A DNA stretch of 64,000 nt from contig NZ_CP047242.1 of the NCBI RefSeq assembly GCF_009856605.1, forward strand, positions 618,001-682,000, written 5' to 3'. Shown piece by piece: positions 6,613-39,210 of this stretch (position 1 is the first letter of the stretch; each line of letters begins with the position of its first letter). Both the position numbers and the translations under genes were made by a program. The notes under the pieces were generated by a model. It was not told the DNA's origin. It searched no databases and saw only the letters and a list, made by a program, of their open reading frames with translations. The DNA is from Trichormus variabilis 0441 (lineage in GTDB: Bacteria > Cyanobacteriota > Cyanobacteriia > Cyanobacteriales > Nostocaceae).

Positions 6613-6706
6613 ACTTAACCCCCCAGCCCCCTTCCCTTGTGAGGAAGGGGGAGCCAAACTCCCCTCTCCGCGTCGGAGAGGGGTTGGGGGAGAGGTTCTT
6701 CCAGAA
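6613..6706. repeat. Second C/G-rich hairpin repeat in the nirA leader
   Basis: Two stem-loops, CCCCCTTCCC...GGAAGGGGG and CCCCTCTCCGCGTCGGAGAGGGG, followed by TTGGGGGAGAGGTT. It belongs to the same family as the repeats at 6357-6510, 24541-24650 and 35404-35469, and ends about 90 bp before the nirA start codon. Confidence 0.7.
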
Positions 6707-35268: not shown

Positions 35269-35906
35269 ATATTAATACTTCGATGTTTTCTGTTGGCTTT
35301 TGAGCAAACTGACTACCGACAAAAACTATAGCGGTTTGCAATTGATTCCAATACAGACCTAACTCTCAACTGACTTTTCACGTCATGTGGAAAAGCTAAC
35401 GCCAGACCTAACCCCCCAGCCCCCTTCCCTACTAGGGAAGGGGGAGAAATCAAAGCCTCTCTCCTTGCAGGATACTGTTGGCGAATTGATAGAGGGCAAA
35501 ACCAATCATCACAAAATAGAAAATCAGGAATACTATGAGGCAGTGGGAGCAATTCGAGCAAAGTGAGAAACGCGAGTCTGACTGCGTGGGACATGTTGCC
35601 ACCAATCCCACATCCGACTGAAGTTGATAGCAGCAGCAGTAATGATATGCTGCAAGAGAGTTTTGGCAAGACCAATGTAGCGACAACGGCGTAATTGGTA
35701 GCGACCAGTAGCTTGGGAAATCAAGCCTTCAACGCCAGCACGTTGGTGATAAATTTGTTGAAAAGATTCAGTTTTTTGGCGAATGCGAGCATCATGTAAT
35801 GCAAGATGTAGTTCCTGTGGTTTGAGGGTCAGAAGACGCGGTAGTTTTTTGGAGCGAGTGCATTTTGAGCGACTTGAACAAAGCGAACAATCGGATTTGT
35901 CAAATT

Positions 35907-37453
35907 GTAAGGATTCAGGTAACAGAGTATTGACAAAGGGGACAGTAGAGGTGGAGTATCAAAAATATGAACCAAAACTTGCCTCAAGATTTAGACAGAG
36001 AAAGTTTGAGCCAGTTATCTAAAGAAGAACTGGTGGACATCATCATTGAGCAGAGCAAGGTAATACGTGAGCTACAAAAGATAATATTAGAACTACAGCA
36101 AGAAATAGAGCGTTTAAAAGTCAGCAGAGATTTAGATAGTTCTAATTCATCAAAACCTCCATCACAAGACATTCACAAAAAAAGCGAAAAAGAAAAAGTG
36201 CCTCACCTTGAGGAATCAAACCCACCGAAAAAGAAACCAGGTGGGCAACCAGGACATCAAGGTAAAACTCGAAAGGGTTTTGGCAGAGTAGATCGCTATG
36301 AAATTTTACGTCCAACGGATTGCATTTACTGTGGTCAAAAAGCATTTGCACCCCTAGCAGTAAAAGTAGAAAAACACGCGGTAGCGCAACTAGTAGAATG
36401 TCCCATAGAAATAGTTGAGTATCAACGCCATACGTGCGTGTGTGAATGCTGTGGAAATATACAAACAGCAGCCTGGCCCCAAGAAATTATTCCAGGACAA
36501 GATTTAGGAACGTCGTTACAAGCATTTTTAGGGTGGACAAATAACTATGCACATATGCCCTACGAAAAACAGCAGGAAATGCTTTGGGAACTTGGTGAGA
36601 TTGAAATTGGATTGGGAACTTTAGTCGCCACCAATGAACGAATACAACAAGCAATTGAACCGAGTATTCATGAGTTAAGTAATTGGGTAAAACAGACACA
36701 ACCTAACATCCATGTAGATGAAACACCTTGGTCAGTTAAAGGGGTTAAAGAATGGTTGTGGGTAGTGGCTAATTCTGAATTCTGCCTGTTTACTGCGGCT
36801 GATACTCGTTCTAGAGCCGAACTAGAAGCAATTTTAGGGACTGAGTATACAGGTGTACTCAGCAGCGATGATTTTAGTGTTTATAATGGCTATCAAGCTG
36901 TTGCCCAACAGAAATGTTTGGCTCATCTACGTCGTCACTTCAAAAAATTGATTCAACTTCCCGGTCTTCACAACAAAGCTATCGGCGAAACCTTTGTCAA
37001 TTTAATTGATGAAGCCTTCAGAAGTTATGCTCAATGGTTTGAAACTCTTGACTCAAACAGTTATAACGATTGGATAAATCAATTCAAATTCAAGTTGCAA
37101 TTTTCTGTTGATCAATGGATTAACTTGGCAGGAGCTACGGCTGGAAACCTTTTACGTTCTTTGCGCGATAAAGCAAGCCAATGGTGGTATTTCCTTGACC
37201 ATCCTGAAGTTCCTCCTGATAATAATCTCGCTGAACGCTCGCTGCGTTTAGCTGTGACAAAACGTAAGGTTAGTGGTGGTTCACGCTCGATGAAGCGGTT
37301 TCAACATACTGCCAATTTGTTGACGGTAGTGCAGACTTGTCGCCGTCAAGGTAGGTCTGTTATTGATTTTTTTGTGCAAGCTCTAATTGCTGATTCTAAT
37401 AATTCTCACTCTCGCCCCTCTTTACTTCCGCAATATTAGACCTGAATCCTTAC
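35907..37453 (+). mobile_element. IS66-family element (single-gene type)
   Basis: The ends are perfect 14-bp inverted repeats, GTAAGGATTCAGGT (35907-35920) and ACCTGAATCCTTAC (37440-37453). They are flanked by an exact 8-bp direct repeat GTCAAATT (35899-35906 and 37454-37461), as expected for IS66. It is 1547 bp long with one transposase gene and no tnpA/tnpB accessory genes, the ISBst12-like layout. Both ends, the duplication and the transposase are intact, so the insertion is probably recent. Confidence 0.92.
35967..37439 (+). CDS. IS66-family transposase
   Basis: A 490-residue transposase. An N-terminal coiled coil (about 20-55, IIEQSKVIRELQKIILELQQ) and a Lys-rich linker with SSNSSKPPSQD are followed by a zinc-binding region (CIYCGQ, then CVCECCG). 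The DDE catalytic domain has NIHVDETPW (first Asp), VLSSDDFSVYNG (second Asp) and PDNNLAERSLRLAV (Glu). Key residues and length are normal. The stop codon overlaps the first base of the right inverted repeat. ATG 35967 is preceded by GTGGAG. Confidence 0.93.
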   Translation: MNQNLPQDLDRESLSQLSKEELVDIIIEQSKVIRELQKIILELQQEIERLKVSRDLDSSNSSKPPSQDIHKKSEKEKVPHLEESNPPKKKPGGQPGHQGKTRKGFGRVDRYEILRPTDCIYCGQKAFAPLAVKVEKHAVAQLVECPIEIVEYQRHTCVCECCGNIQTAAWPQEIIPGQDLGTSLQAFLGWTNNYAHMPYEKQQEMLWELGEIEIGLGTLVATNERIQQAIEPSIHELSNWVKQTQPNIHVDETPWSVKGVKEWLWVVANSEFCLFTAADTRSRAELEAILGTEYTGVLSSDDFSVYNGYQAVAQQKCLAHLRRHFKKLIQLPGLHNKAIGETFVNLIDEAFRSYAQWFETLDSNSYNDWINQFKFKLQFSVDQWINLAGATAGNLLRSLRDKASQWWYFLDHPEVPPDNNLAERSLRLAVTKRKVSGGSRSMKRFQHTANLLTVVQTCRRQGRSVIDFFVQALIADSNNSHSRPSLLPQY

Positions 37454-38902
37454 GTCAAATTGTATTTTGACTACTGGATTGTCATGGCTATCGACAGTTG
37501 TACGCCAGGACTTACTTTGTTTACCCATTGGGCAATCAACACGCATCAAATCCCAATGAATAGTGAAGCAATTTTGCTCAAAGCCGGATTGTGCTGTTGC
37601 TTGCCAACTAGTTCCGGGGGGAACTTTTCCTACTAAATCAACATGAAAATGGGATTGACTATCGACTAAGTTTTGAGCATTGACATAGCCAGTATCGACA
37701 ACATGTTCTTGTGGCAAAAGATTGTTCTGGTTTAAACGAGAATGAATTACTGGTGTCATCTCAACATCCGCACTTGTGGCCACGGACGTTTCCACATTGA
37801 TAATTAAGTTTGGCAGTATGGGGTGACAAATTTCTGTCAGATGCAGATTATAACCAGTCCAGTTGATTTCTCGCTTGCTGGAATTGCGTGCATCAACATC
37901 GTAAGGAGATTCAATCTGTAGTCTATTTGGTGGTAAGTTATCTTGTTCTCGCCAATAGACTTGTTGCAATTGAATATAGTATTGTTGCACCCAAACTATA
38001 CGTAATGTTTCCACTGATGGAATCTGCCACAGCCAATTACAAGTTGAGTCTGCATACAAAGCGGATAGCAAATGATGACCATCCTCACCAATTTTTCGCC
38101 TCAATTTCTCACGTTCGGCTTTTGATTTGGGCAAGCGGTATTGCTCAAATCTCAGGGAGTAACGTTCAAACCAATCAACGTCAACTCTCGATTTGAGCCA
38201 ATCAGGGGCAAAATAAGCCAAGTCATTTAAGGTATGACGTAAAGTTTCTCCCACTAATTCCAAACGATTTAACTGTCGTACTGCGGCTAATACGTGAGTT
38301 GAATCAGTTCTGACACGGCCGCGATTTTTGAGCCAACCTAGTTCTTGGAAACGAGCTAGCATTTGGTTGAGTAACTCTCGCTCTCGTCCTGCTTTGATTA
38401 ATCGCTGACGAAATTCTGAAAGTACTGAATAATCAAACCCTGGGTCATTTAATTCCAACGATAGTGCGTATTTCCAATCAATATGACCCCTCACTGCATC
38501 CGCCGCTTGTCTATCCGTTAAACCTTCGATAAATTGCATTACTGTCACTAATGCCAGTTGTCCTGCTGATATTCCACTTTGACCACAATCTGCGCGGTAA
38601 AGTTTGACAAAATCCTCATCCTTATATAACACTCCTATTTCATCCCGCATCTTCATATATATGTTCCCTTTGGGAAATGAATTCCGGGCTACTTGCGCTG
38701 TTGTTTCAGGAATCTGCGACATATCACGCGGGTGCAGGGTCATAATCTTTGTAGATGCTACGCTCAATATACTTATTCTCTTTTTTCCACTGTTCCAAAC
38801 TCTTGAGGGGCTTAACCCCTCAATAATTCGCCAACAGTATCCTACAAGGAGAGAGGTTTGGAGAGGGGTTTTCCAGATCCCGTGAAAAGTCAGAACTCTC
38901 AA

Positions 38903-39210
38903 GGGGAACTAGGACTAAAAGCCTCTCTCTTTGCAGGAGAAAGTCAAAGTATATTGCATACAAATGAGAAGCGCTATATATCCTTTTGTGGGTGGAGTTT
39001 TTTGTTGGAAGTCACTTAATCAAGCCTTCACAGAATTACACGTTGTACTTTTTAGATTTATGCACTTCTTGTTTAAAATTAGGGCTTACGCAAGTGTCAT
39101 AATCAAACTAACTGTAGGGTGCGTCAGATGAGGAAAATTCCCGAATTGGTACGAAATTATTGGGTCTGACGCACCCTGCTATTGTACCAATTGCATAAGT
39201 CCTGAAAATC
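38903..39210. other. Gap between the IS nest and the usp gene
   Basis: It holds the right arm of the outer palindrome to about 38978 and an inverted-repeat element at 39081-39203. A 66-codon frame (38931-39131) crosses these repeats and is not credible. No gene is seen. Confidence 0.6.
39081..39203. repeat. Hairpin repeat, diverged copy 3
   Basis: The outer arms AGGGCTTACGCAA (39081-39093) and TTGCATAAGTCCT (39191-39203) pair with two mismatches. The inner arms GTAGGGTGCGTCAG (39114-39127) and CTGACGCACCCT (39166-39177) match those of copies 1 and 2. The loop GGTACGAAATTATT resembles the copy 1 loop in inverse orientation. Confidence 0.7.

Follow-up and report, generated by a model that had tools for sequence, protein, structure and literature searches.

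The closest described systems to the element studied here are IS1272 and TnSha1 of staphylococci. IS1272, a member of the IS1182 family of insertion sequences (ISs), is reported to replace its hairpin target and leave no target duplication (PMC5678879), and TnSha1 to have the same deletion mode (PMC4923244). The IS1272 report also outlines a hypothetical pathway c, in which the loop is duplicated through attack at the 5′ side of both loops; this pathway was not observed there (PMC5678879). We analysed an IS1182-family element in a 64,000-nucleotide stretch of the Trichormus variabilis 0441 genome (the window, G000:C1:618001-682000, within a 7.1-Mb genome; positions below are in window numbering). 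This element resembles IS1272 and TnSha1 in its IS1182-family transposase and its inverted-repeat (hairpin) targets, and differs from IS1272, which deletes or replaces the hairpin, in keeping the arms on both sides and duplicating the tip, as in pathway c. The element's constant preference for palindrome tips, and its duplication of the tip in two ways, direct and mirrored, vary the known habit of the IS1182 family; the mirrored loop duplication is the interesting part, and no report of it was found in the literature searched, which excludes most subscription journals. Dispersed palindromes serve as IS landing sites here, likewise for the ISs that Tobes and Pareja reportedly described in 2006 as targeting repetitive extragenic palindromic (REP) sequences. 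As a whole, the locus is probably best explained by four successive insertions, with the IS1182 step targeted to a hairpin apex.

Four mobile elements are nested in the window: the repeat R1 contains M1, which resembles a miniature inverted-repeat transposable element (MITE); M1 contains the IS1182-family element, which in turn contains the IS66-family element ISAva2. M1 (35370-38893) splits the older repeat R1 (35327-38978) and is flanked by a 9-bp duplication, AACTCTCAA; the IS1182-family element splits M1; and ISAva2, with an 8-bp duplication, GTCAAATT, splits the IS1182-family element. In G002, the same-genus relative used for empty-site comparison, the orthologous locus contains the flanking genes and R1, AACTCCCAA occurs there once, and M1 and ISs are absent. 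Because G002 has R1 alone and an IS-free M1 block occurs elsewhere in the genome, R1 is the oldest layer, followed by M1, the IS1182-family element, and ISAva2. Nested elements as such are commonplace. The original prediction, made from the letters of the window, had placed an IS66 element at 35907-37453 with an exact 8-bp duplication, and GTCAAATT was indeed found at 35899-35906 and 37454-37461. It had also proposed that removal of this element rejoins the IS1182 transposase. Both pieces are collinear with the uninterrupted copy L009, intact copies encode 551 aa, and the joined sequence agrees with uninterrupted copies (1 difference in 1818 bp to L009). The features of the nest are as follows (L and G numbers are our labels for loci and genomes).

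35327..35369, plus strand: outer repeat R1, left part, starting with TATAGCGGTTTGCAATTG and including the left M1 target duplication; further R1-type copies occur at other sites in the genome
35361..35369, plus strand: left M1 target duplication AACTCTCAA; single AACTCCCAA in G002
35370..35470, plus strand: MITE-like element M1, left part, with the end CTGACTTTTCACG; copies match query positions 44-143, and L029 and L030 are uninterrupted
35420..35444, no strand: unoccupied hairpin CCCCCTTCCC-TACTA-GGGAAGGGGG within M1, folded in paralogue L030
35456..35464, no strand: left arm CCTCTCTCC of the palindrome entered by the IS1182-family element
35464..35470, no strand: left 7-mer CTTGCAG at the IS1182 junction (loop TTGCA, closing C and G); TTGCA also in M1 paralogues L029-L031
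35471..35906, minus strand: IS1182-family element, first piece, with the tip GATACTGTTGGCGAATT; 1 difference in 437 bp counted from 35470
35533..35906, minus strand: split IS1182 transposase gene, C-terminal part
35899..35906, plus strand: left ISAva2 target duplication GTCAAATT
35907..37453, plus strand: IS66-family element ISAva2, with inverted repeat tips GTAAGGATTCAGGT
35967..37439, plus strand: IS66 transposase gene, 490 aa, matching the IS66 family model NF033517 (312.8 bits, cut-off 180)
37454..37461, plus strand: right ISAva2 target duplication GTCAAATT
37462..38841, minus strand: IS1182-family element, second piece; 0 differences in 1381 bp up to 38842
37462..38743, minus strand: split IS1182 transposase gene, N-terminal part
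38842..38848, no strand: right 7-mer CTACAAG at the IS1182 junction; its central 5 bases have 3 mismatches to a direct and 1 to a reverse-complement copy of the left loop
38848..38856, no strand: right arm GGAGAGAGG of the palindrome; GGGGAGAGG in M1 paralogues L029 and L030
38842..38893, plus strand: M1, right part, with the end CGTGAAAAGTCAG
38894..38902, plus strand: right M1 target duplication AACTCTCAA
38894..38978, plus strand: outer repeat R1, right part, ending in GAGAAGCGCTATA

A DNA search of the strain's own genome with the IS1182 element gave 19 matches, comprising 17 copies, a 68-bp remnant, and a match inside L025. The 15 uninterrupted copies compared have 0–2 differences from L009 over 1818 bp. 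The window pieces 35470-35906 (437 bp) and 37462-38842 (1381 bp) correspond to L009 positions 1-437 and 438-1818, and their sole difference from L009 is at 35646. The 551-aa reading frame is unbroken in 16 copies, the window copy being the split one. An intact copy passes the family model NF033551 (304.8 bits, cut-off 270) and also matches DDE_Tnp_1_6; because the transposase gene is split, the open reading frame of the window copy falls below the NF033551 cut-off (214.2). Terminal inverted repeats GGATACTGTTGGCGAATT are present on both ends. The tip was first read as GGATACTG, which was revised after L021 pointed to a 7-bp duplication: in this copy, A replaces the outer G of the left tip, in agreement with the base beyond the tip on the right side. 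Because of this match, the real target duplication is probably 7 bp, C-N5-G. The original prediction gave the element as 35470-38842; strictly, the mobile unit is probably 35471-38841, the outermost G/C being target duplication. In the 12 other genomes of the genus examined (E ≤ 1e-20), the search recovered no relative of full length; 4 of them contain partial or diverged matches, among them one in G003 of 88 residues at 95%.

Judged from its insertion sites, the IS1182-family element targets C-rich palindromes with a 5-base tip and does not insert at random. A C-rich half-palindrome stands 5 bases from each IS end in 17/17 copies, so that entry into a palindrome, which the original prediction treated as incidental, is the rule in this genome. 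The two arm halves match at ≥8 of 10 positions in 14 copies, hereafter termed simple (the threshold was set after the sites were seen), and all 14 lie in a palindrome tip such as CCCCTTCCC-N5-GGGAAGGGG, which conforms to the palindromic target reported for some members of the IS1182 family. As a background rate, 51 of 63,975 window positions reach the same arm match. In L015, L023, and L025, whose flanks are rearranged, the arms match at only 7, 7, and 6 of 10 positions, respectively. The arms of occupied sites are all close variants of CCCCTTCCC, CCTCTCTCC, or CCTCTCCCC; the tips differ (TTGTA, TACAA, TGCAA, GCGCC, TACCA, and GACGA), and the 5-base spacing is constant. Unoccupied palindromes in the genome include 43 of the form CCTTCCC-N5-GGGAAGG (0 for the reversed control) and 16 of the form CTCTCC-N5-GGAGAG. 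The commonest tip is TTGTA/TACAA, found in 28 of the 43. Four possible future targets lie in the window, at 6670, 22721, 24617, and 35430; each is a C-rich palindrome with a tip of 5 bases and no insertion.

Two types of junction were found among the simple copies: (i) a direct 5-base repeat in 9 of the 14 (L009, L013, L014, L016, and L018-L022); and (ii) an exact inverted (reverse-complement) tip in 4 (L010, L011, L012, and L024). The window copy, the fourteenth, is flanked by TTGCA and TACAA, with 3 mismatches to the direct form and 1 to the inverted form; the lack of a direct duplication here had been missed in the original prediction. In G002, the empty site of L018 reads CCTCTCTCC-TACAA-GGAGAGG, with a right arm two bases shorter, and the occupied site reads TACAA-IS-TACAA. 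The empty site of L024 in G002 reads CCTCTCTCC-TACAA-GGAGAGAGG with perfect arms, and the occupied site reads TACAA-IS-TTGTA with both flanks in place. These comparisons support one case of direct (L018) and one case of mirrored (L024) duplication. Both sites keep the arms, with the tip on both sides, and are not of the inverted-repeat replacement type of IS1272. Pathway c is consistent with the nine direct junctions and with the empty site of L018; the mirrored junctions do not follow from it directly. At seven further sites the relative is without the whole repeat (G002 for L009, L010, L012, L013, L016, and L022; G012 for L021), so that these sites do not bear on the junction, and an empty palindrome site for L011, L019, L020, L015, and L023/L025 was not recovered in the relatives searched.

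The copies L023 and L025, in inverted orientation, bracket ~4 kb (L099, G000:C1:2486000-2499000; L100, 1760000-1769500). Parts of this segment are found on G002 contig C130, directly before the sequence now flanking L015; the middle of the segment (L099 6144-7769) matches C130 weakly. On either side, the outer flank of the pair reads TTGTA. The segment, enclosed by two IS1182 copies, looks as if it had moved with them as a composite, apparently from the L015 locus; the empty target of such a move was not found.

Across the order, 31 of 243 genomes (own included) matched the element at E ≤ 1e-80, the best outside its own being 61% identical. When named genomes were scanned, 11 loci were recovered; Cyanocohniella sp. 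LLY (95%) and Calothrix elsteri (85%) have the most similar ones. In Cyanocohniella sp. LLY, 4 of the 7 IS ends (L153, L157, L160, and L163) have such arms at exactly 5 bases, and L156, L161, and L162 are without them; Calothrix L154 and L158 do not fit the arm pattern, and the G003 remnant does. For distant elements, 35 loci were tried, 5 were dropped with one tip not found (L110, L126, L128, L181, and L182), and 30 were analysed; these sites are partly non-independent (L170/L171, L174/L175, and L115/L121), and the right flank of L122 is empty, which makes its duplication meaningless. As far as their flanks tell, palindrome targeting is not universal among distant IS1182 relatives. A mirrored flank of 16–18 bp occurs at 4 of the 30 sites (L109, L127, L168, and L177). 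L123 (direct) and L127 (mirrored), from different genera, have the arm GGGGTTTGAGT in common, and 0 unoccupied forms of the L123/L127 palindrome were found in 5 genomes. Long mirrored flanks, mostly starting with a G run, were also noted as a group at L168, L177, L127, L109, L117, and L114, the last two by eye in a shifted register.

On the most probable account, R1, a dispersed repeat, was already in place before the lineage split from G002. M1 then inserted in R1 with duplication of 9 bp, the IS1182-family element at the apex of one of the two M1 hairpins, and ISAva2 in the IS1182 transposase gene, duplicating 8 bp and splitting the gene. The IS1182 transposase selects C-rich palindromes whose tip has 5 bases, and at simple sites it probably leaves the 7-bp C-N5-G duplication. 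The sequences show the nest, its order, the preference for these sites, and the types of junction. We infer that the transposase recognises the palindrome in extruded form, as a hairpin or cruciform, and attacks both loops on their 5′ side in a staggered manner. In mirrored copies (TTGTA-IS-TACAA), the gap may be filled by a strand folded back on the palindrome arm, which would copy the other strand's loop. Fold-back copying could also explain why the window copy has the right arm GGAGAGAGG, the mirror of the left, versus GGGGAGAGG in two M1 paralogues. That the hairpin tip is copied on insertion and that repair templated by the folded-back arm yields a mirror-image target duplication is a tentative and, in our judgment, rather unlikely account of these junctions.

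Several observations weigh against the overall explanation. Palindromic arms (≥6/8 matches) were found at just 9 of the 30 distant sites (control, 34 of 870 swapped pairs), and 18 of the 30 carry a direct duplication of 6–7 bp, several of these without a palindrome. Because only 4 of the 9 perfect hairpins in the window with an 8-bp stem and a 5-base loop are of the C-rich kind, sequence matters besides pairing. An orthologous empty site is available for one mirrored case alone (L024), the window copy requires one extra base change, and mirrored junctions could arise by exchange between IS copies. As to the layers, the original prediction was right that repeat, IS1182, and IS66 followed in this sequence, and it missed M1 between R1 and IS1182: the halves it assigned to a single repeat (35327-35469 and 38843-38978) belong to two elements. 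Its three-level reading draws on outer ends that do belong to one repeat and on a block that is palindromic throughout in character; it is highly improbable, being contradicted by the M1-free R1 of G002 and by M1 copies standing alone elsewhere with their own 9–10 bp flanking repeats, some imperfect.

The transposase may instead read the symmetric C-rich sequence in ordinary duplex, with no hairpin or cruciform, which agrees with occupied arms that are near-variants of few sequences, with other strong hairpins left unused, and with insertion of some distant relatives at non-palindromic sites. However, the spacing of 5 bases is constant although the tips vary in sequence, and IS1272, the precedent within the family, is reported to use structure and not sequence (PMC5678879); recognition of the duplex is a real possibility that falls somewhat short of likely. 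A separate question is whether the mirrored and mismatched junctions, the window's included, arose by recombination or gene conversion among near-identical IS1182 copies after direct duplication. The uninterrupted copies compared are near-identical, with differences at 0–2 positions, the prevalence of TTGTA/TACAA among empty palindromes means that random exchange would often pair both forms, and rearrangement does occur, as seen in the hybrid flanks of L015, L023, and L025 and in the 4-kb segment joined in G002 to the L015 flank. By contrast, the flanks of L024, L010, and L012 are kept together in G002, so no flank crossover took place there. The sole other copy with the right flank TACAA-GGAGAGAGG is L018; at position 1795 of the IS, L018 has T and the window copy agrees with the C form, so a conversion tract from L018 would need to be very short. 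In addition, the four rare-tip copies (L013, L014, L020, and L021) are all direct, and L127 and L177, elements with 1–2 strong matches per genome, also show mirrored flanks. Exchange is plausible on this evidence, if not quite probable.

The duplication at a target site is usually understood as a direct repeat whose length follows from the staggered cut. If mirroring by a folded-back arm is true, a mirrored junction has no direct repeat, and standard duplication searches would miss it. A family member that enters hairpin tips and leaves direct or mirrored copies of them would provide evidence, at the sequence level, that folded DNA can be a substrate of transposition and repair, and the hypothetical loop-duplication pathway of IS1272 would become testable in a harmless cyanobacterium. 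If mirroring also accounts for the 16–18 bp flanks of L109, L127, L168, and L177, it would be a general outcome of the family. Dispersed palindromes may act as shared landing pads, gathering mobile DNA where harm may be small.

The IS66 level is an ordinary insertion with an 8-bp duplication. ISAva2 has 5 other full-length copies in the genome, all at 100% identity, and exact 8-bp duplications, as expected of the IS66 family, flank 6/6 full-length copies. Its counterparts on T. variabilis ATCC 29413 plasmids are 100.0% and 99.9% identical to the window element.

M1 belongs to a 146-bp class with the ends CTGACTTTTCACG and CGTGAAAAGTCAG, and IS-free copies occur elsewhere (e.g., L029 and L030). 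It has the features of a MITE, being short and multicopy, with terminal inverted repeats CTGACTTTTCACG, a target duplication, and no transposase gene. The flanking repeats of M1 were judged by eye in several of 8 copies, L034 and L047 being partial matches. Folded as single-stranded DNA, the uninterrupted copy L030 gives −36.5 kcal/mol (z −4.98 vs 200 shuffles) with two hairpins; the position that corresponds to the IS1182 site forms the apex of the second hairpin. R1 and M1 are likewise short dispersed palindromic repeats when compared with REP-type palindromes and cyanobacterial MITEs; Nezha and small dispersed repeats are examples of the cyanobacterial MITE and repeat types. For Anabaena variabilis, dispersed repeats of a short palindromic type have been described (PMC3733652).

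Other small elements were seen at related sites. The hairpins of the M1 copies L031, L033, and L040 contain short palindromic inserts, a palindrome inside a palindrome. The IS1182-family element also sits in a second family of repeats (ends near CGTGARTTCGA, ~9-bp flanking repeats) at L009, L012, and L022, where G002 has neither this repeat nor the IS. A different MITE (ends CTACGGTGTACACA, ~167 bp, 9–10 bp repeat) occupies the same type of palindrome apex in G002 (L195 1834-2047) and fills there the palindrome that IS1182 fills at L014. Among the 8 matches to its pattern in the strain's own genome, at least 2 (L218 and L220) are at such apexes, and L217 is not. In the right flank of L024, ~30-1270 bp past the IS1182 copy, a transposase-like element breaks an adjacent C-rich palindrome of the same repeat, which is intact in G002.

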